A DNA stretch of 42,378 nucleotides from Pseudomonadota bacterium (lineage in GTDB: Bacteria; Pseudomonadota; Alphaproteobacteria; G022571365). Shown here one piece after another: positions 12,469 to 36,166 of this stretch (position 1 is the stretch's first letter; the number at the start of each line of letters is the position of its first letter). The notes beneath the pieces were generated by a model, which was not told where the DNA came from, did no database searches, and saw nothing but the letters and a program-made list of their open reading frames with translations. The DNA is taken from NCBI GenBank assembly GCA_022571365.1, contig JACZXZ010000012.1:1-42378 (forward strand), given 5' to 3'. The translations under genes were made by a program, and so were the position numbers.

Positions 12469-12529
12469 GTGGTGCGGTCCTTTGTCTTTAGCAGCCAGCC
12501 TCGACGGCGCGATATTGGCAAAGTACCTT

Positions 12530-12563
12530 CCCCCGGCCAGTGACGGCCGTCACTGGCCGGGGG
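12530..12563. repeat. Perfect 34-bp palindrome between two Tad genes
   Basis: The left half (17 bases, from CCCCCGGCC to GTGACGG) is exactly mirrored by the right half, with no spacer. It lies in the 164-bp gap between the pilus-assembly N-domain gene and tadG. On the plus strand it is followed by TTTCCCATCTATTTTT, which would make it a terminator for plus-strand transcripts; on the minus strand, the coding direction here, no T-run follows. It may be a bidirectional stop, an mRNA-processing hairpin that sets the relative level of tadG, or a protein site. Confidence 0.85.
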
Positions 12564-12632
12564 TTTCCCATCTATTTTTCAATATGGTCATCGGATCGGT
12601 GCCGCGCCAGCCGGGCACCCACCTTCACGCGG

Positions 12633-13097: not shown

Positions 13098-13194
13098 CGG
13101 TGTAGCCAAATGGTAAATAGCAACCCGTCCGATTGTCTTTGACCTTGACATTGGCGCGAGGTTGGCAAGGCCGCGTTCAAAATCCCAAACGTGT

Positions 13195-13232
13195 AGTATG
13201 TAGGATATAGTATAATATCATATAATCATAGG
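13195..13232. promoter_or_regulatory. AT-rich divergent promoter region
   Basis: Between the divergent pilus N-domain gene and the tadD-like gene, TATAATATCA is followed by TATAATCATA (13211-13230), giving two consensus -10 hexamers ten bases apart in an otherwise GC-rich region. A good -35 element at the right spacing was not identified. The rest of 13098-13388 shows no gene. Confidence 0.4.
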
Positions 13233-13388
13233 TTGTCCTCCGCCGAACATTCTTCGCCCATTAACCCTGCGGGGGCGCGCCGAAGAGGGCTATCGTGTCT
13301 TGGCTGTGCTGACACCTATAGAAGCCGACGCCATTGCGGGGCGGGGCCCATTTTGCCTGGGCCGCAGCCCAGCCTCGGGGGGCGTGCG

Positions 13389-14222: not shown

Positions 14223-14302
14223 GCGGACTCACGTCGACCGTTGACAGGCGCGGCTGGGGGCAGCCCGCCTCTGCGCCCCCGCTCGGGCTGGTCACCCGTC
14301 AG

Positions 14303-15268
14303 CTAGGGGCCCAGGCTGGCCATGGTTTGGATGACGGCCGGGCCAAGGATGATGACGAATATGGTCGGCAGGAAGAACACGATCATCGGCACGGTAAGCT
14401 GTGCCGGCAGGGCTCCCGCCTTCTTTTCCGCCCTGATCATACGCTCGTCGCGGTTTTCTTGCGCCAGCACGCGCAACGCAACGGCGACCGGCGTGCCGTA
14501 CTTTTCCGACTGAATGAGCGTTGTTGCAAGGGATCTGACCGAAGCCAGGCGAACGCGCTCGGTCAAGTTCTGGAACGCCTGCCGTCGGTCGCCGAGGTAG
14601 CTCAGCTCGGCCGTCGTGAGGCCGAGCTCCTCAGCGAGCTCGGGCGAGCTATCGGCGAGCTCGTCGGTGACCCGGGCGAACGCCCCCTCGATTGAAGAAC
14701 CCGACTCGACACAGATCACCAGCAGGTCAAGCGCGTCGGGAAAGGCCTTCGTTATGGCTTGCTGGCGGTGCTGGATGCGGTTGCTGACGAGGACGTTCGG
14801 CAGGTAGAACCCGATGACCGCGACAACGGCCAACACCACGAATTTCACGGGCATGGGCATGACGAACTTCTGGGATCCGAACAGCATAAGCGCCGTGAAC
14901 AGCCCGAGCCCTATGGGCAGCACCAGGCGGGTGAAGGTGAAGGTGATGGCGGCGGCCTGGCTGCGCCAGCCGGCCTGGGCGAGGCGCCTCCGCACCGCCT
15001 TCGATTGGATCAGCTGCTGTAGCTTGAGCCGCTCCAACACTTGCTTCATGAAACCGACACGGGCGAGGCTTCGGGCCTGCGCGCTCTTCCGCAGCGAAGC
15101 TTGTTGGTGGCGGCTGAGCTCCACCCGCCTCTCGGCCACGGCCTTGAGCCGGGAGTCCAGCTGATCACGGCGGACCAGCGGCAGGCCGACAGCAAGGATC
15201 GATACGAAGCTGCCGAGGCTGGCCAGCACCAGGATCAAGGTGGCGGGATCGGTGAGATACGCCATCAT
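14303..15268 (-). CDS. tadC: Tad platform protein TadC
   Basis: A 321-residue integral membrane protein with a GspF/type II secretion F domain. Helices lie near residues 11-31, 105-125, 139-159 and 290-315. The central cytoplasmic part contains AFPDALDLLVICVESGSSIEGAF and LGDRRQAFQNLTERV, typical of the TadC branch. With TadB it forms the inner-membrane platform on which the ATPase acts. Its ATG overlaps the end of tadB by four bases, so the two are translationally coupled. The 80-bp space to the converging tadD gene carries no clear terminator. Confidence 0.92.
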   Translation of the reverse strand: MMAYLTDPATLILVLASLGSFVSILAVGLPLVRRDQLDSRLKAVAERRVELSRHQQASLRKSAQARSLARVGFMKQVLERLKLQQLIQSKAVRRRLAQAGWRSQAAAITFTFTRLVLPIGLGLFTALMLFGSQKFVMPMPVKFVVLAVVAVIGFYLPNVLVSNRIQHRQQAITKAFPDALDLLVICVESGSSIEGAFARVTDELADSSPELAEELGLTTAELSYLGDRRQAFQNLTERVRLASVRSLATTLIQSEKYGTPVAVALRVLAQENRDERMIRAEKKAGALPAQLTVPMIVFFLPTIFVIILGPAVIQTMASLGP

Positions 15269-16260
15269 ATCTGAAAGCTCACCATCTTTTTCATGATGGC
15301 TATGCCGATGCCCATCCAGAGCAGGATGCCTGCCAGCATGATATTGCCCATCTCGGTGTTGAACAGCATGGCGATGTAATCAGGCTGCACCAGGAGCAGC
15401 GCGCCGGTGATCAAGAACGGCAGCGAGCCGATGATCATCGCCGACGACTTTGCTTCGCTCGACAGCGCCTGCACCTTGCCCTGCATCTTCTTGCGCTGGC
15501 GCAGAATGCCGGACAGATTACTCAGCGTCTCGGCCAGATTGCCGCCGGTCTGCTGCTGGATGGTGAGCACGATGGTGAAGAACTTGACTTCCACCGTCGG
15601 CATGCGCGTTAGCGCGCGCTGTAGCGCCTCGTTGAGCGTCATGCCGAGGCGGATGCCGTCGGTGATCAGACGGAATTCGGTGCGAACCGGCTCCGGTGAT
15701 TCCTTGGCGATAATGTTGAGGCATTCGCCGAGCGGCAGGCCCGAGCGTATGCCGCGCACGATGATGTCGAGTGAATCGGCAAAATTCTCGGTGAACGCTT
15801 TCTTCCGCCGCTTGGCGAGATAGCGCAGCACCAGCTTCGGCAAGCCGACGCCTGCAATGATGGCGATAAGGGGGGTCGCGATCCTGGGCAACCCGAGGAG
15901 GGGATAGAGGAGCGCCGAGACCACCGCGACGACGGCGCAAATGATGAGGTAATTGCGTACCGAGAGAGTGAGTCCGGCCTCTTCCAGGTCGCGGCGGATC
16001 TTCTCCTTGGGCGACTTCCGGCGCCCGGTTTCCTGTTGCTTGAGCTTGTCCTCGACGTGAGTCCGGTGTCGGGCGTCGGTCTTGCCGCCCGCGCGCGCCG
16101 CGCCGCCGCGCCGGCCCGGGCCGGCGATGATGGCGATGCGCTTGCGCAACCGCGCCCGCGGTCCGAACTGCAACATCGCCACGGCGGACAGCACTACGGC
16201 GACGAGGACGATCCCCGCACCCCCGCCGAGGACGAGCAAGTCCATGGGGACGTCAGGCAT
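15265..16260 (-). CDS. tadB: Tad platform protein TadB
   Basis: A 331-residue GspF-domain membrane protein. It has an N-terminal helix (about 6-28), a basic cytoplasmic segment rich in Arg/Lys, a pair of helices around 105-145, the F domain with ENFADSLDIIVRGIRSGLPL and QQQTGGNLAETLSNLS, and C-terminal helices near 270-320. TadB partners TadC. The ATG at 16260 overlaps the ATPase gene by eight bases; a second in-frame ATG at 16245 follows the ATPase stop and gives a shorter N-terminus beginning MDLLVLGG. Both are plausible. Confidence 0.92.
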   Translation of the reverse strand: MPDVPMDLLVLGGGAGIVLVAVVLSAVAMLQFGPRARLRKRIAIIAGPGRRGGAARAGGKTDARHRTHVEDKLKQQETGRRKSPKEKIRRDLEEAGLTLSVRNYLIICAVVAVVSALLYPLLGLPRIATPLIAIIAGVGLPKLVLRYLAKRRKKAFTENFADSLDIIVRGIRSGLPLGECLNIIAKESPEPVRTEFRLITDGIRLGMTLNEALQRALTRMPTVEVKFFTIVLTIQQQTGGNLAETLSNLSGILRQRKKMQGKVQALSSEAKSSAMIIGSLPFLITGALLLVQPDYIAMLFNTEMGNIMLAGILLWMGIGIAIMKKMVSFQI

Positions 16261-17887
16261 CGGTTTCGCTCAGCGCTTCGGCGAGCTGTCGCTCCAGGCC
16301 GTAATAACGCGCCCTGTCCCAGAAATTGGGGCGCAGGCCGCTCGGCCGGTGGCGCCCGGTGATGTTGCCCTTCTCGTCTTCGCCCTCAATCTCGTACGTA
16401 TACAGGTGTTGTATGGTGACGACATCGCCTTCCATGCCGACAAGCTCGCTCACGTGGGTGATCTTGCGCGAGCCGTCGCGCAGACGCTCCACTTGAATGA
16501 TGACGGTGATGGCGGCGGCGATCTGTTCGCGCACGGTCCTGACCGGCAAGTTGAAGCCGCCCATGGCGATCATGTTCTCGAGACGGCTGATCGCGTCGCG
16601 TGGGGAGTTGGCGTGCACCGTGCCCATCGAGCCGTCGTGGCCGGTGTTCATCGCCTGCAGCAGGTCGAACGCCTCGGGACCGCGGACCTCGCCCACGATG
16701 ATCCGCTCGGGCCGCATGCGCAGGCAGTTCTTCACCAGGTCGCGCATGGTGACCTCACCGATGCCCTCCAGGTTTGGCGGCCGCGTCTCCAGGCGCACCA
16801 CGTGGGGCTGCTGCAGTTGTAGCTCGGCCGCGTCCTCGCAGGTGACCGTGCGTTCACTCGGGTCGATGAATTGGGTCAGACAGTTCAACAGCGTGGTCTT
16901 GCCCGAACCGGTGCCGCCCGAGACCAGCACGTTGATCCGGCAGCCGCCGATCACCTCCAGAAGCTTGGCGAGGGGTGGCGTGAGGCTGCCGAATTCTATC
17001 AGCTTGTGCAGTGTGAGCTTTTCCTTGGTGAACTTTCTGATGGTCAGGACCGGTCCATCGAGTGCCAGCGGCGGCACGATGACGTTGACGCGTGAGCCGT
17101 CGAGAAGGCGCGCGTCGCAGATTGGGCTGGCCTCGTCGACGCGCCGGCCGACGGCGCTGACGATCCGCTGGCAGACGTTCATGAGTTGCGCGTCGTCGCG
17201 GAATTTGACGTCGGTGAGAACAATGCGCCCGTTGGTCTCGATGTAGACTTGTTGGGAGCCGTTCACCATGATGTCCGCGATGTCATCGCGATCGAGCAAG
17301 GGCTCGATCGGCCCCAGGCCGAGCACGTCATTGCAGATGTCGCCGATCACCCGGTCCTGCTCGGCGGCGCTCAGCACCATGTTGCGAATGGTGATGATCT
17401 CGCTGATGACGTCGCCGATCTCCTCACGCACCGCGTCGGGATCGAGCTTGGTCAGCGCGCTGAGATCGACCGCGGTCAAGAGATCATTGAAGACCTTGAT
17501 CTTGATCTCCTCGAGCCGCTGGTCAGGCTTGCTGGTCGTCGCCTTAGGCTGCGCTTTGACCTTCTTCGCCGGTTCGCTCGGCGCCGGAGCGGCCTCGGGC
17601 CGCCGGTCGGGCTCGCCGGTCGTCGCCTTAGGCTGTGCTTTGGCCTTCTCCGGCGGTTCGCTCGGCGCCGGAGCGGCCTCGGGCCGCCGGTCGGGCTCGC
17701 CGGTCGTCGCCTTAGGCTGCGCTTTGGCCTTCTCCGGCGGTTCGCTCGGCGCCGGAGCGGCCTCGGGTTGCGCCGACGCCGGAGCCGGCGTTTCGACTAC
17801 CTTGAGCTGCGGCGACGGTGCCGTCGGCTTCTCAGCGGCGGGATCAGGTTTTCGAGCGGCCGGAGGGCCCTCACGTTTACCAAACAT
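16253..17887 (-). CDS. cpaF: Flp pilus ATPase CpaF/TadA
   Basis: A 544-residue secretion ATPase of the CpaF/TadA family, the motor for Flp pilus extension (and possibly retraction). The catalytic half carries Walker A GGTGSGKT (324-331), the Asp box around TCEDAAELQL (349-358), Walker B-type RIIVGEVRGPEAFDLL (395-410) and the His box GHDGSMGTVHANSPRD (416-431). Before it is a long Pro/Ala/Lys-rich N-terminus of about 125 residues containing three copies of a 28-residue repeat, unusual for the family. GAGGAG stands just before the ATG. It overlaps tadB and follows cpaE by 65 bp. Confidence 0.95.
   Translation of the reverse strand: MFGKREGPPAARKPDPAAEKPTAPSPQLKVVETPAPASAQPEAAPAPSEPPEKAKAQPKATTGEPDRRPEAAPAPSEPPEKAKAQPKATTGEPDRRPEAAPAPSEPAKKVKAQPKATTSKPDQRLEEIKIKVFNDLLTAVDLSALTKLDPDAVREEIGDVISEIITIRNMVLSAAEQDRVIGDICNDVLGLGPIEPLLDRDDIADIMVNGSQQVYIETNGRIVLTDVKFRDDAQLMNVCQRIVSAVGRRVDEASPICDARLLDGSRVNVIVPPLALDGPVLTIRKFTKEKLTLHKLIEFGSLTPPLAKLLEVIGGCRINVLVSGGTGSGKTTLLNCLTQFIDPSERTVTCEDAAELQLQQPHVVRLETRPPNLEGIGEVTMRDLVKNCLRMRPERIIVGEVRGPEAFDLLQAMNTGHDGSMGTVHANSPRDAISRLENMIAMGGFNLPVRTVREQIAAAITVIIQVERLRDGSRKITHVSELVGMEGDVVTIQHLYTYEIEGEDEKGNITGRHRPSGLRPNFWDRARYYGLERQLAEALSETDA
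17516..17767. repeat. Three tandem 84-bp repeats inside cpaF
   Basis: The DNA encodes residues 41-68, 69-96 and 97-124 of CpaF as three 28-residue copies starting PEAAPAPSEP. The first two copies are identical at protein level; the third differs at several positions (for instance AKKVKAQ for PEKAKAQ). Being a multiple of three, copy-number change would leave the ATPase in frame. The repeat is Pro/Ala/Lys-rich, so it probably forms an extended linker. Confidence 0.9.
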
Positions 17888-17952
17888 GGCTCCTCGTTTT
17901 TATGTAGACCTTTTTGTATGCAACTTTAACTATGACATATATGGATTTAAAT

Positions 17953-19134
17953 CTACTTCCTGAACAATGACAACACGCCTTTCTTCTTCTTCTCCGTCAC
18001 TTTCTGTCGTCCGCTTAGGGTTTTTGCCAGTTCGCCAAGATCGGCCGCCACCCTTTGACGAGCCTTGATCTCGGCGACCATTTGACCGTTGTTGGCCGCC
18101 GTGCCGAACAGCGCCGGCTCGAATGGAACTTCGAGGGTAGTCTTGCACTTCAGCGTCTCTTCAAAGTTCTTGGGCGAAAGCTCTGTCTTCTTGTAGGCGC
18201 CGACGCGATTGAGGATAAGGCGCAACGGCGGGTACTCGCCACGCAGCGCCGTCAGTTTTGTATATAGGTTCTTCGCATCCCGTAGGCCCGCCAGATCGAG
18301 GGAGGTGGTGATCGCGACCTCGTCGCTGTCCTGCAGGCTTTGCTGTGCCCATGGCGTCCAGCCGTGCGGCATGTCAAGAACGACGAACGCCACCATGCGG
18401 CGCAGCTTTTCCAGTACTTGGCTCAGGGATTCTATGGTGATTTCCGGATTGCTTTCAAGAGAGCCGGGTGCGGCCAGCAGCATCAGATGCTCGTCATATT
18501 TTTCCATAAAGCGTTCGAGCAGCACCTCGTCGACTCGTTCCGGCTGAGCCAGCGCGTCGACAATCCCGTTATCGGCCTCGATGTTGAAGGCCAGGGCGGC
18601 CGTGCCGAAGGGGATGTCCAGGTCGACCAAGGCGACGTTTTCCTCGTAAATGTCACCCAGACTCCACGCGACGTTGTGAGCCATGGTGCTGCTGCCGGTG
18701 CCGCCGCGCGCGCCGACAAAGGCGATCATCCGGCCCAGCTGGGCGGCGTCCGGGTCGCCGCAGATCGCCATCAAGGCCTCGGTGATCTGCGCCGGCGTCA
18801 CCGGCCGGGTGAGGTAGTCGCTGACACCGTGGCGGAGCAGCGCACGATAGAGGGAGACGTCGTTCTCGGTGCCAATGACGATGACGTTGCTGCCGACGTT
18901 GCAGACCTCGGCGAGCGAGTCGATCTCGGCCAGCAGAGAGTCACCGCTTTTTTCCGACTCGATGACGACAATGGTCGGGGTCACATTCTCCGAGCAGTAG
19001 GCGATGGCGGCTTCGATTCCGCCGAAGTCGCCCGAGCTCTTGGCCTCCGCCAAGCGCCGGTCGCTGCAGGCTTGTTCGAGGGCTTGTTTGGTCTCCTCGC
19101 TTTCGACGAATGCCTGGATCGAAACGTTGATAAT
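17953..19134 (-). CDS. cpaE: Pilus assembly protein CpaE/TadZ, probable ATT start
   Basis: A protein of about 393 residues with an atypical receiver-like N-domain and a MinD/ParA-like ATPase domain containing the deviant Walker A FVGARGGTGSSTMAHNVA, then ALVDLDIPFGTAALAFN and VVLDMPHGWTPWAQ. CpaE/TadZ localises the Tad machine at the pole. The first ATG/GTG/TTG codon in frame is the TTG at 19053, which falls inside conserved sequence. Upstream, the frame stays open and reads IINVSIQAFVESEETKQAL, the expected TadZ N-terminus. A strong ribosome site GAGGAGG (19143-19149) sits eight bases before an ATT (19132-19134), so an ATT start is proposed. A damaged ATG or a sequencing error could also explain it. 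Confidence 0.8.
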   Translation of the reverse strand: MINVSIQAFVESEETKQALEQACSDRRLAEAKSSGDFGGIEAAIAYCSENVTPTIVVIESEKSGDSLLAEIDSLAEVCNVGSNVIVIGTENDVSLYRALLRHGVSDYLTRPVTPAQITEALMAICGDPDAAQLGRMIAFVGARGGTGSSTMAHNVAWSLGDIYEENVALVDLDIPFGTAALAFNIEADNGIVDALAQPERVDEVLLERFMEKYDEHLMLLAAPGSLESNPEITIESLSQVLEKLRRMVAFVVLDMPHGWTPWAQQSLQDSDEVAITTSLDLAGLRDAKNLYTKLTALRGEYPPLRLILNRVGAYKKTELSPKNFEETLKCKTTLEVPFEPALFGTAANNGQMVAEIKARQRVAADLGELAKTLSGRQKVTEKKKKGVLSLFRK

Positions 19135-19142
19135 CTTTCCGT

Positions 19143-19149
19143 CCTCCTC
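19143..19149 (-). promoter_or_regulatory. Ribosome-binding site that supports the ATT start of cpaE
   Basis: GAGGAGG on the minus strand, eight bases before the proposed ATT. It is the only strong site near the conserved start of the protein, and no canonical start codon lies at a workable distance in the right frame. Confidence 0.6.
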
Positions 19150-19447
19150 AGGCGATATTTCCCAGATGGGCTCCCGATGATCGCAAGTTTAGCACCAACC
19201 GGCGTTCAACGCCATTTGGGAGCGGCTTTCCGTCTTTAGCGCACTCGCTTGCGAACAATTGCCGCCGAAAGATGCCAGTTGGATTCCACTCTCAGAGGGT
19301 CGTGCCGGCTTTCAACCGTCAGGCGCCCTCCCACAAACTCTCTCGATCCGCGTTAATGCTTTGAGATATATGGAAAATTCCGTTCGGGATCGAATTCGAG
19401 GGAGGATCTGGAGAATCCAGGCTCAGGCGAAATCGGGTTGAGAGCTA
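19150..19447. other. Intergenic region between cpaD and cpaE
   Basis: About 300 bp without a supported gene. It separates the cpaB-cpaC-cpaD group from cpaE onward and probably carries a promoter for the second group. GGCGTTCAACGCC (19201-19213) is a short perfect inverted repeat about 67 bp upstream of the cpaE start and could be an operator. No clear terminator was seen after cpaD. Confidence 0.4.
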
Positions 19448-20122
19448 CTACTCGCTAATTTCTTCGCTCACCGTCGCCTTCTCTTCAGCCGTCTTCTCCG
19501 CGCCGGTGACCTCACCCCGACGGTATTTACCGATGATCAGGTCGCTGCGCGCGGTGTCGCGCAGCCCTAGCGGCGCCGGCCCGACGAGATGGGCCGGATT
19601 GGCCACCATGAGGCCCAGATTGCGCCGTGTCGCGCAGCCGTAGTTGGGGGGCAGCGCGTTGGTTGGGTTGTAGTGCGTCGGCCGGGACCAATCCCCGCAC
19701 TGCGGCACCCTGACTTTTATGCCCTCGAAATGCAAGGTGGCTAACCGGGGCCCTTCCGCTGCCTCGACCTCAAGGCCGAGGCGCACGGCCCCGGGCGCAA
19801 CACCGCGGCGGTAGGCATAACGCTCGAGAGCTCGGCCGCGTCTGAGCGCCGCCTCGTCATCTTCGCTCTCTGCCGGCACGGTGATCGTCAACGGGGCGAG
19901 ACCGCGTTTGCCATACTCGGCCAGGAAGCCGTCGAGGCGGGCGCGCTCGTCGGGGGCGAGGCGGGTGACGTCCTCGACGGCGGCGATCGAGAGTTCGTGG
20001 CTCTGCCTTTCGAGGGTGAAATCGTGGTACATCGGCGGCCCCGCGCAGCCGGCGGCGACGAGCAGCAAACCGGCGGCCCACCCGAGGGACCGCAAGCCTG
20101 AGCATTTCACTATTGTCGCCAT
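19448..20122 (-). CDS. cpaD: Pilus biogenesis lipoprotein CpaD
   Basis: A 224-residue CpaD-family lipoprotein. The signal ends in LLVAAGC, giving a lipidated cysteine near residue 26. The mature protein has the family block VPQCGDWSR with NALPPNYGCATRRNLGLMVA then NPAHLVGPAPLG, containing two conserved cysteines that could pair. CpaD is an outer-membrane-associated partner of the CpaC secretin. The C-terminal tail is acidic (AEKTAEEKATVSEEISE). Gene order cpaB-cpaC-cpaD is as in Caulobacter, with 64 bp between cpaC and cpaD. Confidence 0.9.
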   Translation of the reverse strand: MATIVKCSGLRSLGWAAGLLLVAAGCAGPPMYHDFTLERQSHELSIAAVEDVTRLAPDERARLDGFLAEYGKRGLAPLTITVPAESEDDEAALRRGRALERYAYRRGVAPGAVRLGLEVEAAEGPRLATLHFEGIKVRVPQCGDWSRPTHYNPTNALPPNYGCATRRNLGLMVANPAHLVGPAPLGLRDTARSDLIIGKYRRGEVTGAEKTAEEKATVSEEISE

Positions 20123-20186
20123 AACGTAGCCCTTCCTTCAACCCACTGGCATGCCCGATCCGAGGCCGACCTTATGCCGTGGTGCA

Positions 20187-21644
20187 TTATTCCATGATAT
20201 ACCCGACCGGGCCCTCGATCTGGCCCGCCGGGGGCTCCAGATCCGGCTTGACATAGATTTTGTGCAACCGCCCGAACAGGTACATATCGACGTCGCTCGC
20301 CGGGGCGAAGCCGTCGGTCGGCAGGGCCAGGGCGCGCTCCGCCACCGGCTCGACGAGGTAGGCGGTGACGATAATGATGAGCTCGGTCTCGTTGCGCTGG
20401 AACTCCTGACTGCGGAACAGGGCGCCGAGGATCGGCAGGTTCATCAGGCCCGGTATGCCGGTGACCGTGTTGGTTATGTCGTCCTGGAGCAGGCCGGCGA
20501 TGACCAGGCTGCCGCCGCTGGGCAGCTCCACGGTGGTCTCCGCCCGGCGCAGCGTCAGCGCCGGAATGGTGACGGTATCGTCCGCGGTCACCTCAATCGT
20601 GAGCTCGCCCGAGCCAGCGCCGGTCGCCAGCGCGCTGACCTCGGTCGACACCTTGAGCGAGATGCGGCCCGACTCGAGCACCACCGGGGTGAAGGCCAAG
20701 CTCACGCCGAACGGCTTGAACTCGATGGTGAATGTACCGGGTTCTGTTCCGGGGATCAGGACCGGAAACTCGCCGCCGGCGATCAGGGTCGCGGTCTCGC
20801 CCGAGATCGCGGTCAGGGTCGGCTCGGCCAGGTTCTTGACCAGTCCTTCGCTCTCCAGCGCCTTGATGACCGTCGTGAGGCTGCGGGGGCCACTGTCGAA
20901 AACGAACGTGCCGGTGCCGAAAGCATTCACGCTGGCGACAGTGAGACCGCTAACCGAAGGCACACTTGTAGTCAAGTCGAAGCCGATATTCTCGGTTCTC
21001 GTCAACCCCAAGGTCAGGTCGATGCCGAGCTGCTTGAAGATATCGCGTCTGACCTCGGCGACGCGCACCTGGAGAAAGACCTGTTGCCCGCCCAGCACGC
21101 TCAGCATGTTGACCACGTTTTCATCCTCCGCGACGAAGCGCCGGGCGATCTGCCGGGCGTCCTCGGAGGCCTTTGGTGAGCGCACCGTCCCGGTCAGGAC
21201 AATGTCGGTGTTCACCGCTGTGACCTCGATGGTCTCGTTCGGCAGAATCTCGGCCAGGGCCTTTCTGAGCGCCGTCATGTCGACTTCCACCCGCACCTCG
21301 AGGCGGAGTGCGACACGGCCCTCGCTGTCGAGGAAGAAGACGTTGGTGTCGCCAACGGCCTGGGCCACGAGGAAGACCTTCCGCGCCGTCTTGACCACCA
21401 CGTCGACGATCTCCGGATTGGCCACCATGACGTCGCGCGCATCGACTGGCAGGTTGATGAGGCGCGTCTTGCCCACCGGCAGGGTGATGACGTAGGGCAC
21501 CGTATCGTCGATCAGTTCCTGCATCTCGATGCCGGCGTCCACGCCTTGCTGGGCCAACGCGGCTTGGGGCACGGCGAACTGGGCCACGGCGAGGAGGACA
21601 AGGACGTTTCTTATAGAAAAGCGTCCCATAAAAAAGCGGTTCAT
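20187..21644 (-). CDS. cpaC: Flp pilus secretin CpaC/RcpA
   Basis: A 485-residue secretin forming the outer-membrane channel for the Flp pilus. A Sec signal (ending AALAQQ) is followed by the pilus N-domain with LPVGKTRLINLPVDARDVMV and ANPEIVDVVVKTARKVFLVA, a BON-like domain around DIVLTGTVRSPKASEDARQI, and the C-terminal secretin domain with VFLQVRVAEVRRDIFKQLG, LAEPTLTAISGETATLIAGG and GIPGLMNLPILGALFRS. Length is normal for the family. Its ATG overlaps the cpaB stop by four bases. A stand-alone copy of its N-domain is encoded at 12633-13097. Confidence 0.94.
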   Translation of the reverse strand: MNRFFMGRFSIRNVLVLLAVAQFAVPQAALAQQGVDAGIEMQELIDDTVPYVITLPVGKTRLINLPVDARDVMVANPEIVDVVVKTARKVFLVAQAVGDTNVFFLDSEGRVALRLEVRVEVDMTALRKALAEILPNETIEVTAVNTDIVLTGTVRSPKASEDARQIARRFVAEDENVVNMLSVLGGQQVFLQVRVAEVRRDIFKQLGIDLTLGLTRTENIGFDLTTSVPSVSGLTVASVNAFGTGTFVFDSGPRSLTTVIKALESEGLVKNLAEPTLTAISGETATLIAGGEFPVLIPGTEPGTFTIEFKPFGVSLAFTPVVLESGRISLKVSTEVSALATGAGSGELTIEVTADDTVTIPALTLRRAETTVELPSGGSLVIAGLLQDDITNTVTGIPGLMNLPILGALFRSQEFQRNETELIIIVTAYLVEPVAERALALPTDGFAPASDVDMYLFGRLHKIYVKPDLEPPAGQIEGPVGYIME

Positions 21645-22558
21645 TTTTGGCTGGAGAACTCCAGCGTGGTCAACGTGGACGAGCGGTAAACCTTCAGCTT
21701 CTTCCTCTGCGCGAAAGCCGATGCCTCGTCCGATACCGGGCCCTCGATTCCGGCCTGTGCCAGGATCGAGGCCCGCACGGCCTCACTGATCTCGCGATCA
21801 CTGGTATAGCCGATCTCCCCCTCTGCGATCTCGCCTGGGGTGAGACTGCGCAGCGACAGGGAAAGGATACCCATCGTCGACGCCACGGCGAGCAGCTCGG
21901 CCTGCTTCGGCGTAACCTCCAAGGTCACCGTTTTTGAGACCTGCGCGTCCTTGTCCAGGTCGGCCATGCTCTGGTCTATGGCGAGCACCCTGACGTCCTT
22001 GAGAACGGTTTCACTGGAGAACTGCACCACCGGCCCTATGACATCCTGTCCCTCGTCCGTCCTCACTAGGGCCTTGCGGATCTCGACGGTCAGGATGACG
22101 TCGATCCGGTCGCCGGGGGAAACGAAGCCGGCGGCGCCTGAAACCGGGTTCACCGCAATGCTCACGGCGCGCATCCCCGGCGACACTGCGCCAGCCAGGA
22201 AGCCGGCCTCGCTGCGTTTGAACACCTTGTCCGTCGTGATCGGCTCGCCCTGGCCGATGCCGCGCTTGACCACGAACCCGACCAACTCCTCGTCGACATC
22301 CTCCTCGTCCGCCAGGATGTAGTTCTTGCCGACACCGTCCTCCGGCCAAGCCCGCCACGTCATATCCTCGTATTTGAGGATCGTGCCGGCGGCCAGATCC
22401 CTCTCGGCGACCAGCACCTCCACCGCCGCGATGCCTGGTCGCTGGTCCTCGGCCGTCGAGGGGGCCACCTGGCTCTGCAGATAACGGTTTACGAGGAACG
22501 TCGTCAGGCCCGCGACGGCGAGCGCAACAACGATGAGAACGATGGTCAAAGGGCGCAT
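21641..22558 (-). CDS. cpaB: Flp pilus assembly protein CpaB/RcpC
   Basis: A 305-residue protein with one N-terminal membrane helix (TIVLIVVALAVAGLTTFLV), then a SAF-type beta-clip domain with VEVLVAERDLAAGTIL and GVSPGMRAVSIAVNPVSGAAGFVSPGDRIDVI-type sequence (here AVSPGMRAVSIAVN, then FVSPGDRIDVILTV). CpaB is thought to interact with the secretin and with peptidoglycan in the periplasm. It starts the cpaB-cpaC-cpaD group; the gap upstream has tandem operator-like repeats. It overlaps cpaC by four bases. Confidence 0.92.
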   Translation of the reverse strand: MRPLTIVLIVVALAVAGLTTFLVNRYLQSQVAPSTAEDQRPGIAAVEVLVAERDLAAGTILKYEDMTWRAWPEDGVGKNYILADEEDVDEELVGFVVKRGIGQGEPITTDKVFKRSEAGFLAGAVSPGMRAVSIAVNPVSGAAGFVSPGDRIDVILTVEIRKALVRTDEGQDVIGPVVQFSSETVLKDVRVLAIDQSMADLDKDAQVSKTVTLEVTPKQAELLAVASTMGILSLSLRSLTPGEIAEGEIGYTSDREISEAVRASILAQAGIEGPVSDEASAFAQRKKLKVYRSSTLTTLEFSSQK

Positions 22559-27544: not shown

Positions 27545-27558
27545 TTGATCTATGTCAA
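27545..27558 (+). promoter_or_regulatory. FNR/NnrR-type box
   Basis: TTGATCTATGTCAA fits the FNR consensus TTGAT-N4-ATCAA with one mismatch and the broader TTG-N8-CAA used by NnrR/DNR-type NO regulators. It is centred about 104 bp before the CuA-protein ATG and about 58 bp before the start site implied by the -10 at 27598-27603, near a class I activator position. Confidence 0.6.
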
Positions 27559-28335: not shown

Positions 28336-30003
28336 ATGGCTGCGAGCAAGCTGGTCGAAGGCCTGAAACGCCTGCCTGGCGGCGACAGGGCCTTGCTCAA
28401 GGGCTTTGTCGGTATGGCCGTGCTGGCCCTCGGGCTCGGTCTTGTGTACGGCGCGGTGACCGCCTTCGCCCGCGCCGGCTTCATCACTCTGGAGCCTGAT
28501 GTCGCCTATCCGATATTGACCCTCCACGGGGTCACGGCCTTCTTCTACTGGCTGTATTTTATCCAAGCGGGCTTGGTGCTCATTCTGGTCGCCACCTACA
28601 CGGCAGGTGTCGAGAGGCTGGTGTGGAGTCCGCTGGCGTGGCTCGGTCTTGGCCTCATGGTCGCCGGATTTGGCCTGAGCGAGCTGATGCCCATCTTGGG
28701 CGCGGTCATGTTGTACGACGGCCAGCCGGAGCTGATCGGCTACGAGATGACGAAGGGCGGCTTCTTCTATCTCGGCTACCTCCTTCTCAGCCTGGGGCTG
28801 TTCCTGGTCGGCGTATCGAGCATCTCCACCGCCCTCAAACCACGGTTCGAAGGGAAGGTCCAGACCTGGTCAGCGATCAGCTTCGCCAGCGTCGCCTGGG
28901 CTGGGCTGCTCATGGTGAGTGCCGTGGCCGCGATTAATGCCTTTCTGCCGGCGGCCTTGTGGGCGTTCGGTCTGGGACCGGCGCCTTCAGCCTATGCGAT
29001 GAGCTGGAGCGTCCTGTTCCACAACGTCCATTACCTGCCCCTGATGGCTACGGTGCTGCTGTGGTACGTGCTGGTGGAGGAGATGGTCGGCGTCAAGTCG
29101 ATCTTCGGGGAACGGTTTTCAAAGATCGTCTTCTGCCTCTATCTGATCTTCGTGCCGCCGACGTCCCTGTACCACATGTTCCTGGAACCCGGGCTCTCCG
29201 ACGCGGTCAAGGTCCTGGGGTCGTTGTTGTCGCTATTCATCGGCGTTCCCACTGTGCTCGTCTTTTTGATCATCGTCGCTTCCCTGGAGGCGCATGCCAG
29301 GGCCCACGGGGGCCGCGGCTTGTTTGGCTGGGTGCGCATGCTGCCCTGGCGCAATCCAGCGATGGCGGCGATCGGCATGGCGGTGGTCAATCTTGCCCTC
29401 GGCGGCGCCTTTTCCTTCGTGTTGATCCAGGAAAAGCTCGCGCCGCTCTTGAGCGACACCTTCTTCGTGCCGGGCTACTTCCACTTCCTTACGCTCGGCA
29501 CGGTGACACTCACCTTTATCGCGATGTTGATGTACGTAATCCCAGGCCTGACGGGCCGTCCGCTGTGGAACCCCTCGCTTCTCGCGAAGCTGCCGTACGT
29601 GACGACCTTCGGCCTGCTGATCTTCGGCGGCGCCGGCCTCACCGCCGGCTATCTGGGGGTGCCGCGGCGCCTGTTCGACGTGAGCTATGGAGGCCAGGCG
29701 CCGGAGATATGGGGGACGCTGATGTTCGTCGTCGGCATTGGCGCGGTGTTCATGACAGTCGCGCTGGCCCTTTACGTCTTCGGCCTGGTCAGGACCCTGT
29801 TCGAGCGGGTGAGCGAGGCCGGGGCAGAGACGACCAACCTCGCGGTAGTGTCGTGGGGCGGGATCGCCGTCGGCCGGCAGGCCGCGTGGGTCGGTCCGCT
29901 TTCCGTGCTCGTCCTCATCGCCTGCATGTACGTGTTCACCGCCCTGGGCTTCGAGCTGATGCAGAGCCTGCCAGTCAGCGTGACCGGCGGACATGGTGAC
30001 TAG
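28336..30003 (+). CDS. Heme-copper oxidase subunit I homologue with altered active site
   Basis: A 555-residue, roughly 13-helix protein clearly related along its length to B-family (ba3-type) subunit I: TLHGV with H64, SLEAHARAHGGRGLFGW, LPWRNPA, FVPGYFHFLTLG, VIPGLTGRP and GVPRRLFD. By hand alignment to Thermus ba3, the low-spin heme ligands are kept (H64, H383), one CuB ligand and the cross-linked tyrosine position are kept (H229, Y233), and the second CuB histidine is H280. The first histidine of the HH pair is Y279, and the proximal ligand of the high-spin heme is Y381 (PGYFHF for PGHFH). It may be a non-oxidase electron-transfer or gas-reacting enzyme. It is annotated from homology; activity is unknown. 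Confidence 0.85.
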   Translation: MAASKLVEGLKRLPGGDRALLKGFVGMAVLALGLGLVYGAVTAFARAGFITLEPDVAYPILTLHGVTAFFYWLYFIQAGLVLILVATYTAGVERLVWSPLAWLGLGLMVAGFGLSELMPILGAVMLYDGQPELIGYEMTKGGFFYLGYLLLSLGLFLVGVSSISTALKPRFEGKVQTWSAISFASVAWAGLLMVSAVAAINAFLPAALWAFGLGPAPSAYAMSWSVLFHNVHYLPLMATVLLWYVLVEEMVGVKSIFGERFSKIVFCLYLIFVPPTSLYHMFLEPGLSDAVKVLGSLLSLFIGVPTVLVFLIIVASLEAHARAHGGRGLFGWVRMLPWRNPAMAAIGMAVVNLALGGAFSFVLIQEKLAPLLSDTFFVPGYFHFLTLGTVTLTFIAMLMYVIPGLTGRPLWNPSLLAKLPYVTTFGLLIFGGAGLTAGYLGVPRRLFDVSYGGQAPEIWGTLMFVVGIGAVFMTVALALYVFGLVRTLFERVSEAGAETTNLAVVSWGGIAVGRQAAWVGPLSVLVLIACMYVFTALGFELMQSLPVSVTGGHGD

Positions 30004-30024: not shown

Positions 30025-30240
30025 ATGAAAGAAGACGTCTGGTTGATCGCGACCGTGTTCGTCGTCTGGGCCGTCCTGTCAATCATGTATTTCACGATTC
30101 CCATGATCTACATGCCGACCACCGGGCGCGTGTGGGCGCTGGGAGCGCTGCTTTTTCTAGTGCTGGCGGTTGTGGTCGCTATCGGGGAAAGCAGGGGTCG
30201 GACCAAACATCACGTGAACGATCCTCCCACCTTCTCCTAG
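30025..30240 (+). CDS. Small membrane protein of the oxidase-like cluster
   Basis: A 71-residue protein with two hydrophobic helices (about 6-28 and 38-57) and a polar C-terminus (GESRGRTKHHVNDPPTFS). It starts 21 bp after the subunit I homologue on the same strand, so it is probably a small accessory subunit, similar in size and place to subunit IIa of ba3 oxidases, though sequence similarity could not be judged. ATAGG stands before the ATG. Confidence 0.7.
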   Translation: MKEDVWLIATVFVVWAVLSIMYFTIPMIYMPTTGRVWALGALLFLVLAVVVAIGESRGRTKHHVNDPPTFS

Positions 30241-30440: not shown

Positions 30441-31493
30441 TTGAAGCGGGTCCGACTGGGAGTGGCAGCCTGCCTTATGATGCTTGGGGTCAGCGGCGCG
30501 GCCAGTGCCCAAGACCCCGAGGGCATGACTGATGGCATGACTATGGAAATGGGCGGTGGCGGCATGCATCTCAGACCTGATGGGCGCGCGCCAATCGGCG
30601 TGATGGGCGACCACGTGCCCATGGAGGGGGCGTGGAGCATCACCTATCAATTCATGCGTATGGCGATGGACGATAATCGGTCCGGGACCGACACGCTCTC
30701 CGACGCGGAAGTCCTGACGGACTTCTCGATCGCACCCACCCGTATGACAATGGACATGCACATGGCGTCCGTTATGTACGGTTGGAGCAAGAGTCTCTCG
30801 TTCATGGCCATGGTGCCATACTACGATAAGGAGATGGACCACATAAACCGGGCCGGCGTGCGCTTTACAACGAAGTCCAAGGGCGTCGGCGACGTCGCGC
30901 TGAAGGGCGTCTATGGACTTTACCAGAGGCAAGATCACAACGTCTTGCTCAACGCGGGCGTCAGCCTGCCGACAGGATCGATTGACAAGAAGGACGATAC
31001 GCCCGCAGGCCTAAATCAACAACTTCCCTACCCGATGCAGATCGGTTCCGGGACGTTCGACCTGCTACCAGGTCTTACCTATCGCGGTCACACGAGTGAT
31101 TTCTCCTGGGGTGGACAGATTGGCGCCACCATTCGGCTCGGCAGGAATGACAACAGTTATGCCTTGGGCAATCGCTACCGCACGACCACCTGGGGGGCGC
31201 GTAAGTGGGCCGACTGGATTAGCACGTCACTGCGTGTCGCTGCCGAGGTGGTAGACAATGTCGATGGCGCCGATCCGTTGTTGAATCCGGCGAGCGTGCC
31301 GACGGCGGATCCCGACCGGCGAGGCGGCACGCGTGTCGATATCCTGGGCGGCGTAAACTTGATTGGCACGGCGGGCGTGGCAAGGGGCCAGCGCCTGTTT
31401 ATCGAGTTCGGCATTCCCATCTATCAAAACCTGGATGGACCGCAGCTCGAAACCGATTGGCTGTTGACCGTTGGTTTGCAATTCAGGTTCTGA
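30441..31493 (+). CDS. Met-rich outer-membrane-type protein (phenol-degradation "transporter" family), TTG start
   Basis: A 350-residue protein with a Sec signal (LKRVRLGVAACLMMLGVSGA, cleaved after ASAQ). The mature N-terminus is Met/Gly-rich (MTDGMTMEMGGGGMHL), then GVMGDHVPMEGAWSITYQFM and TRMTMDMHMASVMYG. The remainder has alternating beta strands and ends in a terminal aromatic (LQFRF), typical of an outer-membrane beta barrel; the layout resembles proteins annotated "transporter" or "meta-pathway of phenol degradation" that often accompany copper-redox genes. The start is TTG at 30441, with a perfect AAGGAGG five bases before it; no ATG fits. Its place after the CuA/oxidase genes suggests a copper-linked role (inference). 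Confidence 0.8.
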   Translation: MKRVRLGVAACLMMLGVSGAASAQDPEGMTDGMTMEMGGGGMHLRPDGRAPIGVMGDHVPMEGAWSITYQFMRMAMDDNRSGTDTLSDAEVLTDFSIAPTRMTMDMHMASVMYGWSKSLSFMAMVPYYDKEMDHINRAGVRFTTKSKGVGDVALKGVYGLYQRQDHNVLLNAGVSLPTGSIDKKDDTPAGLNQQLPYPMQIGSGTFDLLPGLTYRGHTSDFSWGGQIGATIRLGRNDNSYALGNRYRTTTWGARKWADWISTSLRVAAEVVDNVDGADPLLNPASVPTADPDRRGGTRVDILGGVNLIGTAGVARGQRLFIEFGIPIYQNLDGPQLETDWLLTVGLQFRF

Positions 31494-31855: not shown

Positions 31856-34800
31856 TCACTCCGCCGCCGCGCCCACCGGCTCGGGACCGGGCGGCCGCCG
31901 CTTGCGCTCGACGGTGCCGACGACCAGGCTTAGGAGCGGCGGAATGATGGCCAGGGTCAAGAGGGCCGAGAGCGTCAGCCCGCCGAGCACCACCGAGCCC
32001 AGCCCGCGGTAGAGCTCGGACCCGGCGCCGGGGAACAAGACCAGCGGCAGCATCCCGAACACGCTGGTCAGCGTCGACATGAAGATCGGCCGGGTCCGGT
32101 TCCGCGTCGCCTCGACGATGGCCTCGGCGACCTCCTTGTTCTCGTGGCGCACCAGGTAGAGCGTCTGGTGGACCAGCAGGATGGCGTTGTTGACGACGAT
32201 CCCGATGAGGATGACGAAGCCCAAGAGGGTCAGCATGTCGAGCGGCTGGAAGGTGTACAGGTTCAGCACCGCCAAGCCGCCGATCCCGCCCGCGGTGGCG
32301 AGCGGCACCGAGAGCAGGATGATCAGGGGATAGAGGAAGCTCTCGAACAGCACCGCCATCACCAGGTAGACGATGATCACCGCCAGGATCAGGTCGATGA
32401 CCATGGCGTCCCAGGTCTGGGTCAGCTTGTCCGCCGTTCCCGAAAGGTCGAGCCTGACGCCGGGCGGAAGCCCTTCCGCGCGCAGCCTGTCGATGACCTC
32501 GCTGTCAATGATCTCTATGGCCACCTCGAGCGGCAGCTCGGCGGCCGGCAGGATCTCCAGGGTCACCGTGCGCACCCGCTCCAGGTGACGGATCTCGGTC
32601 GGCCCCGCGGTGACGACGACGTCGGCCAGCGAGCTGACCGGCAGGATCATGCCCGAGCGGGTCACCACCGGCAGGTTGGCGATGCCCTGGGTCTCGCGGA
32701 TCTTGCGCTGGGGACCCAGGAGCGTCAGATCAATCCGCCGCCCCTCGACGGTGATCTCGTCGACCCTGAGCCCGTCGTTGAAGGCGTCCACGGTCAGCCC
32801 CAGCTCGCGCACGCTCACGCCGCTGTCGGCGAGCCGCAAGGGATCGGGCAGGACCCGCACTTCCGGGGCGCCGAGTTCGAGGCCGGGATTGGGCTGAAGC
32901 TGGTTGCCCGCCTCGCGCGGCAGCACGATGTTGATGAGCGAAGTCGCCCGGAGGGCGACGTCGAGGACCGCCGCGAGATCGGGGCCGGAGACGTTGAAGT
33001 CGATCGAGCGGCTGCCGCTCAGGTGACGGCCGAACAGCGACAATTGGGTCACGAAGCCGAAGGTTCCGGGCTCGCGGAAGATCCGATCCTGGAGGACCGG
33101 GACCAGCTCGCCGGCCCGGGTCGGATCGACCGCCTTGGCGCCCATGAAGGTCCGCGCGCGGGTGGCGACGAAGAAGAAGTTCTCGATTTTCGGCGGCTCT
33201 CCCGGCGCCGCCTCGGGCCCGGTGCTCGAGGCCCACAGCGGCTTGATGGAGTCCTCGATCTCTTCGGCGATCTTGGTCATGGTATCCAGGTTGTAGCCGG
33301 GGGGCGGCAGCATCGTGCCGAAGACCAGGTTGCGGTTGCCTTCCGGCAGGTACTCGAGCTTGGGCAGGAACAGCCAGGTGGCGAGCGCGCCCGCGCCGCA
33401 CAGGACCGCGACGACCGCGATCGCCGTGGGGCGCGAGCGCACGGTCAGGCGCGTGAAGCCGATGAGCGCGGCCACGAACAGCTCGGCCACCCGGTCCACC
33501 CCCGGCAGTCTCATCCGCGTCTTGCTTTCGTGGCCGGGGCGGCCTAGCAGGCGGTTCGCGAGCGCCGGAATCACCGTGACCGCGACCAGCAGCGATAAGA
33601 GTACCGCCACCGAGATCGCCACCGCGATGTCGCGGAACAACTGCCCCACCTCCAGCTTCATGATCAGGATCGGCGCGAACACCACGACCGTGGTCAGCGC
33701 CGAGACCAGCACCGCGCCCCAGACCTGCCGGGTCCCGCGGTAGGCCGCCTCGGCCGCCGGTATCCCCTGCTGGCGCAAGCGGTAGATGTTCTCCAACACG
33801 ACGATGGCGGCGTCGACCACCATGCCGACGGCGAAGGCGATGCCGACCAGCGATATGACGTTGATCGACCGGCCGAGCGCGGCCATGGCGACGAACGCGC
33901 CGATCACCGACACCGGAATGGCCAATGAGACGACCAGCGTGGCGGCGCCCGAGCGCAGGAACAACAGCAGGACCAGCGCGGCGAGCGTGCCGCCGATGAA
34001 AATGTTCTGCTGGACAAGGCTGATGGCCGAGCCGATGTAGACCGTCTCGTCGTAGACCTGATTGAGCACGAGGCCGGCGTCGGGAAGCACCCCGCGGTTG
34101 AGCTCGGCGACCGCCTGGCGGACGCCCTCCATGGTCTCGATGACGTTGGCGCCGGCCTCGCGGATGACATTCAGTGCGATCGCCGGTTCGCCCAGCTGGC
34201 GGATGTGGGCCACCGGCTCCTTGTAGCCGAAGGACACTTGGGCGATGTCGCCGACGGTGACCCGCGCGATCCGGCCGGAGGTCGGATCCTCGCCGGTCCT
34301 GAGGACGACCGCGCGGACCTGCTCGGGCGTGGTGAACTCGCCTTCGGTGCGCACGACGTAGCGGCGTTTGCCTTCCTCGACGTCGCCCGCCGATACGGAA
34401 GCGTTGGCGGCTTTGAGCACATCGACGATCTCGGCGACGGTGAGCCCGTAGCGCGCCATCCGCTCGGGGTCGACCACGACCTGCAACTCCCGCTCGCTGC
34501 CGCCGTAGATGTTGGCCCGGGACACGCCGGGCACCCGCTCCAGGCGGTCCTGGATGAGATCCTCGGCGAGATCCCCATAGGTGTGGATCGCGCGGTCGTT
34601 GCCGGGCGCCCGGATCAGCGCGAACCAGGCGATGGGGGTATCCTCGGCGGTTGCGGTCTTCAGGAACGGCTCGTCGGCCTCGTCGGGGTAGTCGGCCACC
34701 CGGTCGAGCCGGTTGGAGACCAGCAGCAGCGAGCGGTCCATGTTCTGGCGCAGGTCGAATTCGAGCTTGATTTCACTGCGCCCGTCCTCCGAGCGGCTGG

Positions 34801-35041
34801 TCATCTCCTCGAGGCCCTCGAGCCCTTTGAGCACCTCCTCCTGACGGTTGGTGATCTCGCGCTCGACCTCGGCCGGGGCCGCCCCGGGCCACGTCGTGGT
34901 GATGGTGATGACCGGCTTCCGCATGTCGGGGGCGAGCTGGATCGGGATGGCCTGGAGCGCCACCAGCCCGAACAGGACGACCATGAGCACCACCGCCATG
35001 ACGGCGATCGGGCGGGCGAGGGCGAGCTTGATCAGGTTCAT
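31856..35041 (-). CDS. RND efflux permease (HAE-1/AcrB type)
   Basis: A 1061-residue inner-membrane proton-driven efflux pump with the duplicated RND architecture: helix 1 (MNLIKLALARPIAVMAVVLM), a large periplasmic porter domain, and helix clusters around 345-500 and 890-1040. The helix 4 motif reads GMVVDAAIVVLEN (D410, with Ala where AcrB has a second Asp), and the helix 10 motif reads GIVVNNAILLVHQ (Asn where AcrB has Lys). These changes occur in several RND subgroups; D410 should remain the proton site. The substrate is unknown. The ATG follows the membrane-fusion gene's stop immediately, so the pair is an operon. Confidence 0.93.
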   Translation of the reverse strand: MNLIKLALARPIAVMAVVLMVVLFGLVALQAIPIQLAPDMRKPVITITTTWPGAAPAEVEREITNRQEEVLKGLEGLEEMTSRSEDGRSEIKLEFDLRQNMDRSLLLVSNRLDRVADYPDEADEPFLKTATAEDTPIAWFALIRAPGNDRAIHTYGDLAEDLIQDRLERVPGVSRANIYGGSERELQVVVDPERMARYGLTVAEIVDVLKAANASVSAGDVEEGKRRYVVRTEGEFTTPEQVRAVVLRTGEDPTSGRIARVTVGDIAQVSFGYKEPVAHIRQLGEPAIALNVIREAGANVIETMEGVRQAVAELNRGVLPDAGLVLNQVYDETVYIGSAISLVQQNIFIGGTLAALVLLLFLRSGAATLVVSLAIPVSVIGAFVAMAALGRSINVISLVGIAFAVGMVVDAAIVVLENIYRLRQQGIPAAEAAYRGTRQVWGAVLVSALTTVVVFAPILIMKLEVGQLFRDIAVAISVAVLLSLLVAVTVIPALANRLLGRPGHESKTRMRLPGVDRVAELFVAALIGFTRLTVRSRPTAIAVVAVLCGAGALATWLFLPKLEYLPEGNRNLVFGTMLPPPGYNLDTMTKIAEEIEDSIKPLWASSTGPEAAPGEPPKIENFFFVATRARTFMGAKAVDPTRAGELVPVLQDRIFREPGTFGFVTQLSLFGRHLSGSRSIDFNVSGPDLAAVLDVALRATSLINIVLPREAGNQLQPNPGLELGAPEVRVLPDPLRLADSGVSVRELGLTVDAFNDGLRVDEITVEGRRIDLTLLGPQRKIRETQGIANLPVVTRSGMILPVSSLADVVVTAGPTEIRHLERVRTVTLEILPAAELPLEVAIEIIDSEVIDRLRAEGLPPGVRLDLSGTADKLTQTWDAMVIDLILAVIIVYLVMAVLFESFLYPLIILLSVPLATAGGIGGLAVLNLYTFQPLDMLTLLGFVILIGIVVNNAILLVHQTLYLVRHENKEVAEAIVEATRNRTRPIFMSTLTSVFGMLPLVLFPGAGSELYRGLGSVVLGGLTLSALLTLAIIPPLLSLVVGTVERKRRPPGPEPVGAAAE

Positions 35042-36166
35042 TTAAGACCCCTGCTCAAACCACACCTTCTGGCCGTCCTTAAGCCGCTCGTTGCCCCGCA
35101 CCACCACCAGATCGCCGGGTTCCAGGCCGGAGAGCACCTCGAATCGGCCGCCGATCGCCTCGCCCAGCTCGATCGTGCGGACCGAGGCCGCATCGCCGTC
35201 GACGACGAAGACCAGCGGCGTGCCCTGGCGCTCGATCACCGCGTCCTTGTGGACCGAGACCACTTCTCTGGCCTCGCTTAGCGGCACGTGCACGATCACG
35301 CTCTGGTTGTTCGCCAGGCCCAGGCGCGCGGGGTCGAGGTCCGGCGTAAAGCGCACCGGCCGGGTCCGGGTCAAGGGGTTTTCCTCGGGCACCAGGGCGC
35401 GGACAAAGGCGCGGTAGAGAATCTGGTTGGAAAGCTCGAAATCGACGGCGGTCCCCGGCTTCAGCCCGGCGATGCGCTGGGCCGGGACGTCGGCTTCGAT
35501 CTCCATATCCGCGTCGTTGATGAGCGTCACCACCGGCTCGCCGACGTTGAGATAGGCGCCCGACGCGGTGTGGCGCAGGGTGACGACACCCGGATAGGGC
35601 GCGCGGATTTCCGCATTGTAGAGGTTGATCTCGGCCAGCCGGAGGCTGGCCCGGGCCCCGGCGAGCTGGGCCTGGGACTCGCTGACCAGTCCTTCGCCCA
35701 TGGCGACATCCTGGCGGACGTCCTCATAGCGCGCCTTGGGAAAGGCCGCCGATTTGGACTCGCGCAGCTTCTCGAGGCGGGCCAGCTCCTGTCGCGACTG
35801 CTTGAACTCGGCCCGGGCGGTGGCCAGGCGCGCGACGTAGCCCGCGACCTCGGCGGCCCTCAAGTCGCGCTCGGCCTCAAGGGCGTCGGTCACCAGCACC
35901 GCCAGCACGTCGCCGGCCTTCAGCCGGTCCCCGACGTCGACACGCATCTCGGCCACAGCGCCCGGGGCAAGCGCCGCGACCACCCCGCTCTGGCGCGCCA
36001 CCAGCCGGCCGATCACCGGCACCCACTGGGTCAATGGCTCGAGCCTGACCGCGTCCACCTGAACGACGGCCGGCGGCTCCTCCTGAGTCCAGGCCCGATC
36101 GGCGACCACCGGGAACAGGGCGGCAAGCGCGATGACGGTCACGGTTATGCGCGCGCTTCGGATCAT
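35042..36166 (-). CDS. RND efflux membrane-fusion (periplasmic adaptor) protein
   Basis: A 374-residue adaptor with a signal sequence (ending VVADRAWTQ). It has the lipoyl/barrel-sandwich halves (GVVAALAPGAVAEMRVDVGD and APYPGVVTLRHTASGAYLNV), a helical hairpin between them with coiled-coil character (LRAAEVAGYVARLATARAEF, then QELARLEKLRESK), a beta-barrel domain (DADMEIEADVPAQRIAGLKP) and a membrane-proximal end with GLEPGDLVVVRGNERLKDGQ. It links the permease to an outer-membrane channel that is not in the window. It starts directly after the marR stop. Confidence 0.92.
   Translation of the reverse strand: MIRSARITVTVIALAALFPVVADRAWTQEEPPAVVQVDAVRLEPLTQWVPVIGRLVARQSGVVAALAPGAVAEMRVDVGDRLKAGDVLAVLVTDALEAERDLRAAEVAGYVARLATARAEFKQSRQELARLEKLRESKSAAFPKARYEDVRQDVAMGEGLVSESQAQLAGARASLRLAEINLYNAEIRAPYPGVVTLRHTASGAYLNVGEPVVTLINDADMEIEADVPAQRIAGLKPGTAVDFELSNQILYRAFVRALVPEENPLTRTRPVRFTPDLDPARLGLANNQSVIVHVPLSEAREVVSVHKDAVIERQGTPLVFVVDGDAASVRTIELGEAIGGRFEVLSGLEPGDLVVVRGNERLKDGQKVWFEQGS

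Follow-up and report, generated by a model that had tools for sequence, protein, structure and literature searches.

The gene at 28336..30003 of the window (the whole 42,378-nucleotide stretch of DNA analysed here) encodes a full-length heme-copper oxidase (HCO) superfamily homolog by fold, in which tyrosine occupies the position of the high-spin heme ligand and that of one CuB ligand, as it does in all 23 aligned members of its family. Our favored reading, to which we assign a probability of roughly 0.4, is that this subunit I belongs to a conserved three-subunit membrane complex that would derive from the B-family HCOs as sister to eNOR. Its catalytic site would be other than a heme-copper center, and its role would lie in nitrite/NO chemistry at low O2.

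Subunit I and its operon

The operon and its surroundings comprise the following features.

27545..27558, plus strand: perfect FNR/NNR-type box TTGATCTATGTCAA, 97 bases before the subunit II start codon
27656..28315, plus strand: subunit II, with an N-terminal TTRRGF membrane anchor, a Met/His-rich linker and a CuA cupredoxin domain
28336..30003, plus strand: subunit I, HCO-like, 555 aa, no internal stop in translation
30025..30240, plus strand: third subunit candidate, hydrophobic, 71 aa (VWAVLSIMYFTIPMIYMPTTGRVWALGALLFL)
30441..31493, plus strand: Met-rich exported beta-barrel-like protein, a probable associated gene (weak match to PF13557)
31856-36166, minus strand: RND efflux permease and HlyD-type adaptor, adjoining the operon

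A profile search matched subunit I to PF00115 at 1.4e-40, with 140 bits against a cut-off of 34.8. Its best solved relative is the ba3 oxidase of T. thermophilus, at about 24% identity overall, and the two align without gaps at both TM10 (VPGHFHL in ba3, VPGYFHF here) and TM7 (FHHQF and LYHMF), so a register error has no room. An AlphaFold model built with 17 relatives reached a pLDDT of 80.4 and a pTM of 0.86, with low confidence around residues 270-300 and 365-377, and Foldseek scored it against ba3 at a TM-score of 0.77-0.78. Subunit II also matched CoxB; its CuA ligands (H164, C201, C205, H209 and M212) align with the ba3 CuA domain in the PDB and are conserved in 18 relatives.

A homolog of the third subunit candidate, 56-78 aa long, directly follows subunit I in most of 20 loci. 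In the gammaproteobacterial loci L001-L006, this small third protein has roughly double the length and carries its motif in repeated form. At many loci a small exported His-rich protein, mostly bearing CC or CxxC, precedes subunit II at the same place (L045, L007, L009, L010, L011, L013, L016, L019 and L026); the window is without one. The Met-rich exported protein has a homolog (65% over 121 aa) just upstream of the operon in L045, the locus of the closest relative, and none was found at the other loci. Outside the operon, no conserved neighborhood is common to the whole family. Elsewhere in the window lie an 817-aa FbiC-like protein (2865-5318, plus strand; F420 synthesis), which contains two radical-SAM stretches and ends in a CofH region, and a set of Tad/Flp pilus genes (about 11035-22558, minus strand) that includes TadE/G-like proteins, a T2SSE ATPase, a secretin and RcpC/CpaB.

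Ligand positions

The positions that bear on cofactor binding are listed here with their ba3 counterparts.

28525-28527, plus strand: H64 codon, low-spin heme ligand (ba3 H72)
29020-29022, plus strand: H229 codon CAC (ba3 H233)
29029-29031, plus strand: H232 codon CAT (ba3 V236)
29032-29034, plus strand: Y233 codon TAC (ba3 Y237)
29170-29172, plus strand: Y279 codon TAC (ba3 H282, a CuB ligand)
29173-29175, plus strand: H280 codon (ba3 H283)
29476-29478, plus strand: Y381 codon TAC (ba3 H384, proximal ligand of heme a3)
29482-29484, plus strand: H383 codon, low-spin heme ligand (ba3 H386)
Subunit I: R444/R445 (ba3 R449/R450), kept

Y279, Y381, H229, N230, Y233, H280, H64 and H383, together with the motifs around them, are invariant in the 23 aligned family sequences. 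The bis-His site of the low-spin heme, H64 with H383, is kept throughout; the TM10 histidine for the high-spin heme is absent, Y381 standing there in 23 of 23; and the CuB set is incomplete, with H229 and H280 retained and the second His represented by Y279. The active-site tyrosine of the cross-link position persists as Y233, again in every sequence. None of the 23 shows a histidine shifted into the place of the lost proximal ligand, and the only other conserved TM histidines, H225 and H232, are both in TM6. The ba3 V236 position is His (H232) in 22 of the 23 and Gln in one, while the W229 position is His in 21, Ser in the window and Asn in its closest relative. The face of TM6 toward the former CuB/heme pocket thus appears to have gained histidines, and H232 might stand in for the lost CuB ligand, though it lies off the B-family position.

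Judged by its residues, the electron input is kept, with CuA in subunit II, the bis-His low-spin heme site and the propionate arginines. The low-spin, electron-transferring half of the enzyme would therewith be preserved, and the O2-reducing half would not.

The first-pass annotation, made from the letters of the window alone, had described a full-length gene with tyrosine at the high-spin heme His and at one CuB ligand, intact low-spin heme ligands and a complete CuA partner. Alignment to the ba3 structure bears out each element, the exchanges of H384 for Y381 and H282 for Y279 both falling in gapless stretches. The homologs with the same tyrosines that it proposed to look for exist, in 23 of 23 aligned sequences, and the shifted histidine that could have undone its reading is excluded by the same alignment. 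The present analysis adds to it H232, a third subunit, the promoter box of FNR/NNR type, the link with NirK and eNOR as the sister clade.

Distribution and phylogeny

A GTDB scan returned 19 relatives, which are 49-66% identical and come from Gamma-, Beta- and Alphaproteobacteria, and one further genome holds a copy at 75% identity. Copies in Azospirillum brasilense and Azospirillum sp. TSH58 lie on large replicons, complete ones included, and Siculibacillus lacustris also carries a copy. Viral contigs yielded no relatives. The family is rare: a phylum draw of 399 genomes contained it once, in the window's own genome, and a class draw of 384 genomes contained it in 5. Ordinary HCOs are also present in 22 of 22 host genomes; the family complex is therefore accessory and not the sole terminal oxidase. 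In a maximum-likelihood tree the family is monophyletic (100/100), on a long stem within the B-family enzymes, with eNOR as its sister (99/96).

Comparison with known classes

With ba3 the family shares the fold, the low-spin heme ligands, a CuA subunit II and the first and third CuB histidines, as well as the residues at Tyr237, Arg449/Arg450, Tyr133 and Tyr248. It differs at H384 and H282 (Tyr in the family), at V236 (His), at the K-path residues T312, T315 and Y244 (non-polar) and at D372, H376, G362 and G363 (all replaced). The likeness to eNOR lies in the sister position, the CuA subunit II and a Val at the ba3 Y244 position in both. In contrast to the family, which has neither set complete, eNOR retains the histidine of the high-spin heme and the pair in TM7, and its diagnostic active-site residue, Gln (PMC8756737), stands in 5 of 5 aligned eNORs where the family has Tyr233 in 23 of 23. 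The Tyr for Gln and the missing histidines of the high-spin heme and TM7 rule out the family as eNOR.

The same position is diagnostic in other NO reductases, being N in sNOR, D in gNOR, N in bNOR (CuANOR), E in cNOR and E in qNOR (PMC8756737 Table A4). These classes have the HCO fold in common with the family, and possibly NO-related genomic settings, but all differ from it at Y233. The sNOR-type proteins of two host genomes read PGHFHF and PHHL. By these residues the family is outside eNOR, sNOR, gNOR, bNOR, cNOR and qNOR, the classes compared. Neither nNOR nor nitric oxide dismutase (NOD) is known to have lost the high-spin heme His. HCO homologs with Tyr at these ligands were not described in the open literature searched, outside which the specialist HCO-diversity surveys lie. 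Both nNOR and NOD are named among the HCO classes (PMC11707229).

Two further departures from the usual ligand set came to light outside the family. The eNOR-like subunit I on T. thermophilus TF24 plasmid pTF24b (BFH81995.1; positions 1898-3583 of L036) reads VVGHFKG, with Lys as the TM10 low-spin heme residue in place of His. Divergent HCO-like proteins in L081 (minus strand, 656-aa frame) and L082 (plus strand, 496-aa frame) read IPAHYHG and IPSHYHA at TM10 and have a single His in the TM7 motif (LMHD and LHDL); an eNOR is nearby in L081. It is possible, on these motifs, that the L081 and L082 proteins form another HCO-like class.

Promoter boxes and the association with NirK

FNR- and NNR/DNR-type regulators recognise sites of the type TTGAY-N4-RTCAA. 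The box before subunit II is the single match to this pattern in the 42 kb window, where 0.04 would be expected. A search of 345 bp upstream of the operon detected the window's box only. At other loci a small gene separates box and subunit II, and extending the search to 1.2 kb for that reason brought up the remaining boxes. Of 16 loci, 6 (the window, L045, L007, L008, L019 and L026) have a perfect box no more than 700 bp upstream of the operon, and none was found upstream in the remaining 10; outside these regions the same loci have 5 boxes in 232 kb (binomial p 8e-8). Given these boxes, low O2 or NO probably induces the operon via a regulator of the FNR/NNR type.

Of 22 host genomes, 13, the window's own among them, have a copper nitrite reductase NirK that scores over its curated cut-off, a count that overstates the independent cases since some host MAGs are closely related. 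The class draw is the cleaner test, and there NirK is present in 4 of 5 carriers against 22-23 of all 384 genomes (6%; Fisher p ~4e-5). In L045 the operon is followed by nirK (which has a box of its own) and by genes for a hemerythrin-domain protein and a Crp/Fnr protein. This is the only locus where nirK adjoins it, the gene being on other contigs in the remaining hosts checked.

The nitrite/NO part of our reading has evidence against it, namely this adjacency in a single locus, the missing boxes in 10 of 16 and the copper-resistance neighbors described below. Replacement of a NOR by the family in NirK genomes is unsupported statistically: another recognised NOR is absent in 10 of 13 NirK-bearing hosts versus 7-10 of 19 NirK-bearing non-hosts, with NOR types assigned partly by E-value, ORF length and nearness to nirK. 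A full denitrifier setting was likewise rejected, NosZ being over the cut-off in just 1 of 22 hosts, with two partial matches besides.

Copper genes near the operon

Several loci have copper-resistance neighbors in place of denitrification ones. Copper P-type ATPases occur near the family copies in L007, L008 and L018, and CusA-type efflux near the copy in L026; the Azospirillum copies have CusA-type efflux and a Met-rich LTXXQ protein close by. Along with the RND efflux operon of the window (whose permease is closer to multidrug than to CusA models), its Met-rich exported protein, the small exported protein (CC-bearing in most cases) that precedes subunit II at many loci, and the nature of NirK as a copper enzyme, these neighbors would suit a complex for copper handling or cuprous oxidation. 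The Met/His-rich subunit II would then collect periplasmic Cu(I), with CuA and the low-spin heme accepting electrons, and the complex would protect the cell or load NirK or other copper enzymes. Set against this, the FNR/NNR-type boxes suggest sensing of O2 or NO and not of copper, many loci have no copper genes nearby, and copper is needed by any working CuA enzyme. We consider a copper-handling complex unlikely, though the least unlikely of the alternatives.

Fate of the high-spin heme site

The K-path of ba3 comprises Glu15 of subunit II, T315, Y248, T312, Y244, S309 and Y237 (PMC3141039). In subunit I it is partly lost, with T312 replaced by V/A, T315 by I/V/L and Y244 by V/L/M, and with Y248, Y237 and S309 (as Thr) remaining. 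Around the pocket, the family has Phe for G232, Leu/Phe and Ala/Ser for G362/G363, Ala for D372 and Ser for H376, although the last exchange alone says little because an A-family subunit of the window genome also has Ser there. With Y381, Y279, other residues of the high-spin pocket and the lower K-path all replaced, an ordinary O2 reductase is excluded. The first-pass annotation had allowed for a site with no high-spin heme, with one on a tyrosinate, or with copper alone. Since G362/G363, G232 and D372/H376 have given way to conserved residues and the K-path is broken, the evidence leans toward loss or heavy remodelling of the high-spin heme site.

The same changes weigh against a high-spin heme retained on a tyrosinate, with a catalase-like proximal ligand, facing a copper held by two or three histidines and reducing peroxide, NO or O2. 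Such a site would account for an invariant Y381 exactly at the heme ligand position and for the retention of H229, H280 and Y233 (the cross-link position), with H232 as a possible substitute for the missing CuB ligand. It would nevertheless have to accommodate conserved bulkier or non-polar residues at ba3 G232, G362, G363, D372 and H376 and the loss of the K-path positions T312, T315 and Y244. The kept R444/R445 might seem to speak for it, but R449/R450 in ba3 solvate the propionates of the low-spin heme (PMC3141039), so their retention is no argument for a high-spin heme. A tyrosinate-ligated heme seems to us improbable, more so than copper handling.

Less probable still is a non-catalytic electron conduit, in which the low-spin heme and CuA would carry electrons of quinol or cytochrome origin toward periplasmic partners (NirK, for example) or away from them, with the old catalytic site structural only. 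Conserved electron-transfer parts beside changed catalytic ones, and the co-occurrence of NirK, would be expected of it; the former catalytic site, however, is among the most conserved parts of the protein (motifs LFHN.HYLPL, PPT.LYHMF and SDTF.VP.YFHF), which suggests continuing chemistry. Taken together, the preserved low-spin half, the changed O2-reducing half and the apparent gain of TM6 histidines suit a remodelled metal site more than a vacant one.

Decay of an oxidase gene, or a mistake in assembly or sequencing, which ligand loss would suggest in one sequence, can be dismissed, because Y279 and Y381 are invariant in many independent assemblies across proteobacterial classes (with TAC codons in the window and Tyr in all 23 sequences), pairwise dN/dS in the family is 0.13-0.39, indicating purifying selection, and the partner genes, for the CuA subunit II and a membrane protein of 57-71 aa, are intact and conserved. 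The earlier impression of a complex in use and not in decay thus holds.

Proposed function and significance

In the HCO-derived complex that we favor, electrons from a cytochrome c or a cupredoxin would pass to CuA, on to the low-spin heme and from there to a remodelled site composed of H229, H232, H280, Y233, Y279 and Y381. This site would hold a non-heme metal, copper or iron, a tyrosinate-ligated heme being less likely, and NO or another small nitrogen oxide would be reduced there without proton pumping. An FNR/NNR-type regulator responding to low O2 or NO would switch the operon on alongside NirK. Tyr233 counts against an NO reductase, being the residue of O2 reductases, unlike the Q, N, D or E diagnostic of known NORs (PMC8756737 Table A4). 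In its most specific form, that an HCO clade discarded the high-spin heme and rebuilt the pocket (H229, H232 and H280 with Y233, Y279 and Y381) as a non-heme metal site reducing NO or a related nitrogen oxide, the proposal is doubtful, ranking between copper handling and the tyrosinate-ligated heme.

Descriptions of the HCO superfamily treat the heme-copper center as common to its members, and the binuclear centers of cytochrome c oxidases are called identical in a passage of PMC5829832. Annotation pipelines will label the genes of this family cytochrome c oxidase and predict O2 respiration on that basis. A conserved clade lacking the high-spin heme ligand would illustrate the extent to which the HCO scaffold can be reused, and it would provide a natural H-to-Y variant for heme-ligand chemistry. 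As Azospirillum and Siculibacillus lacustris are both cultured, their copies make direct testing possible, and the clade could supply a missing player in nitrite/NO metabolism.
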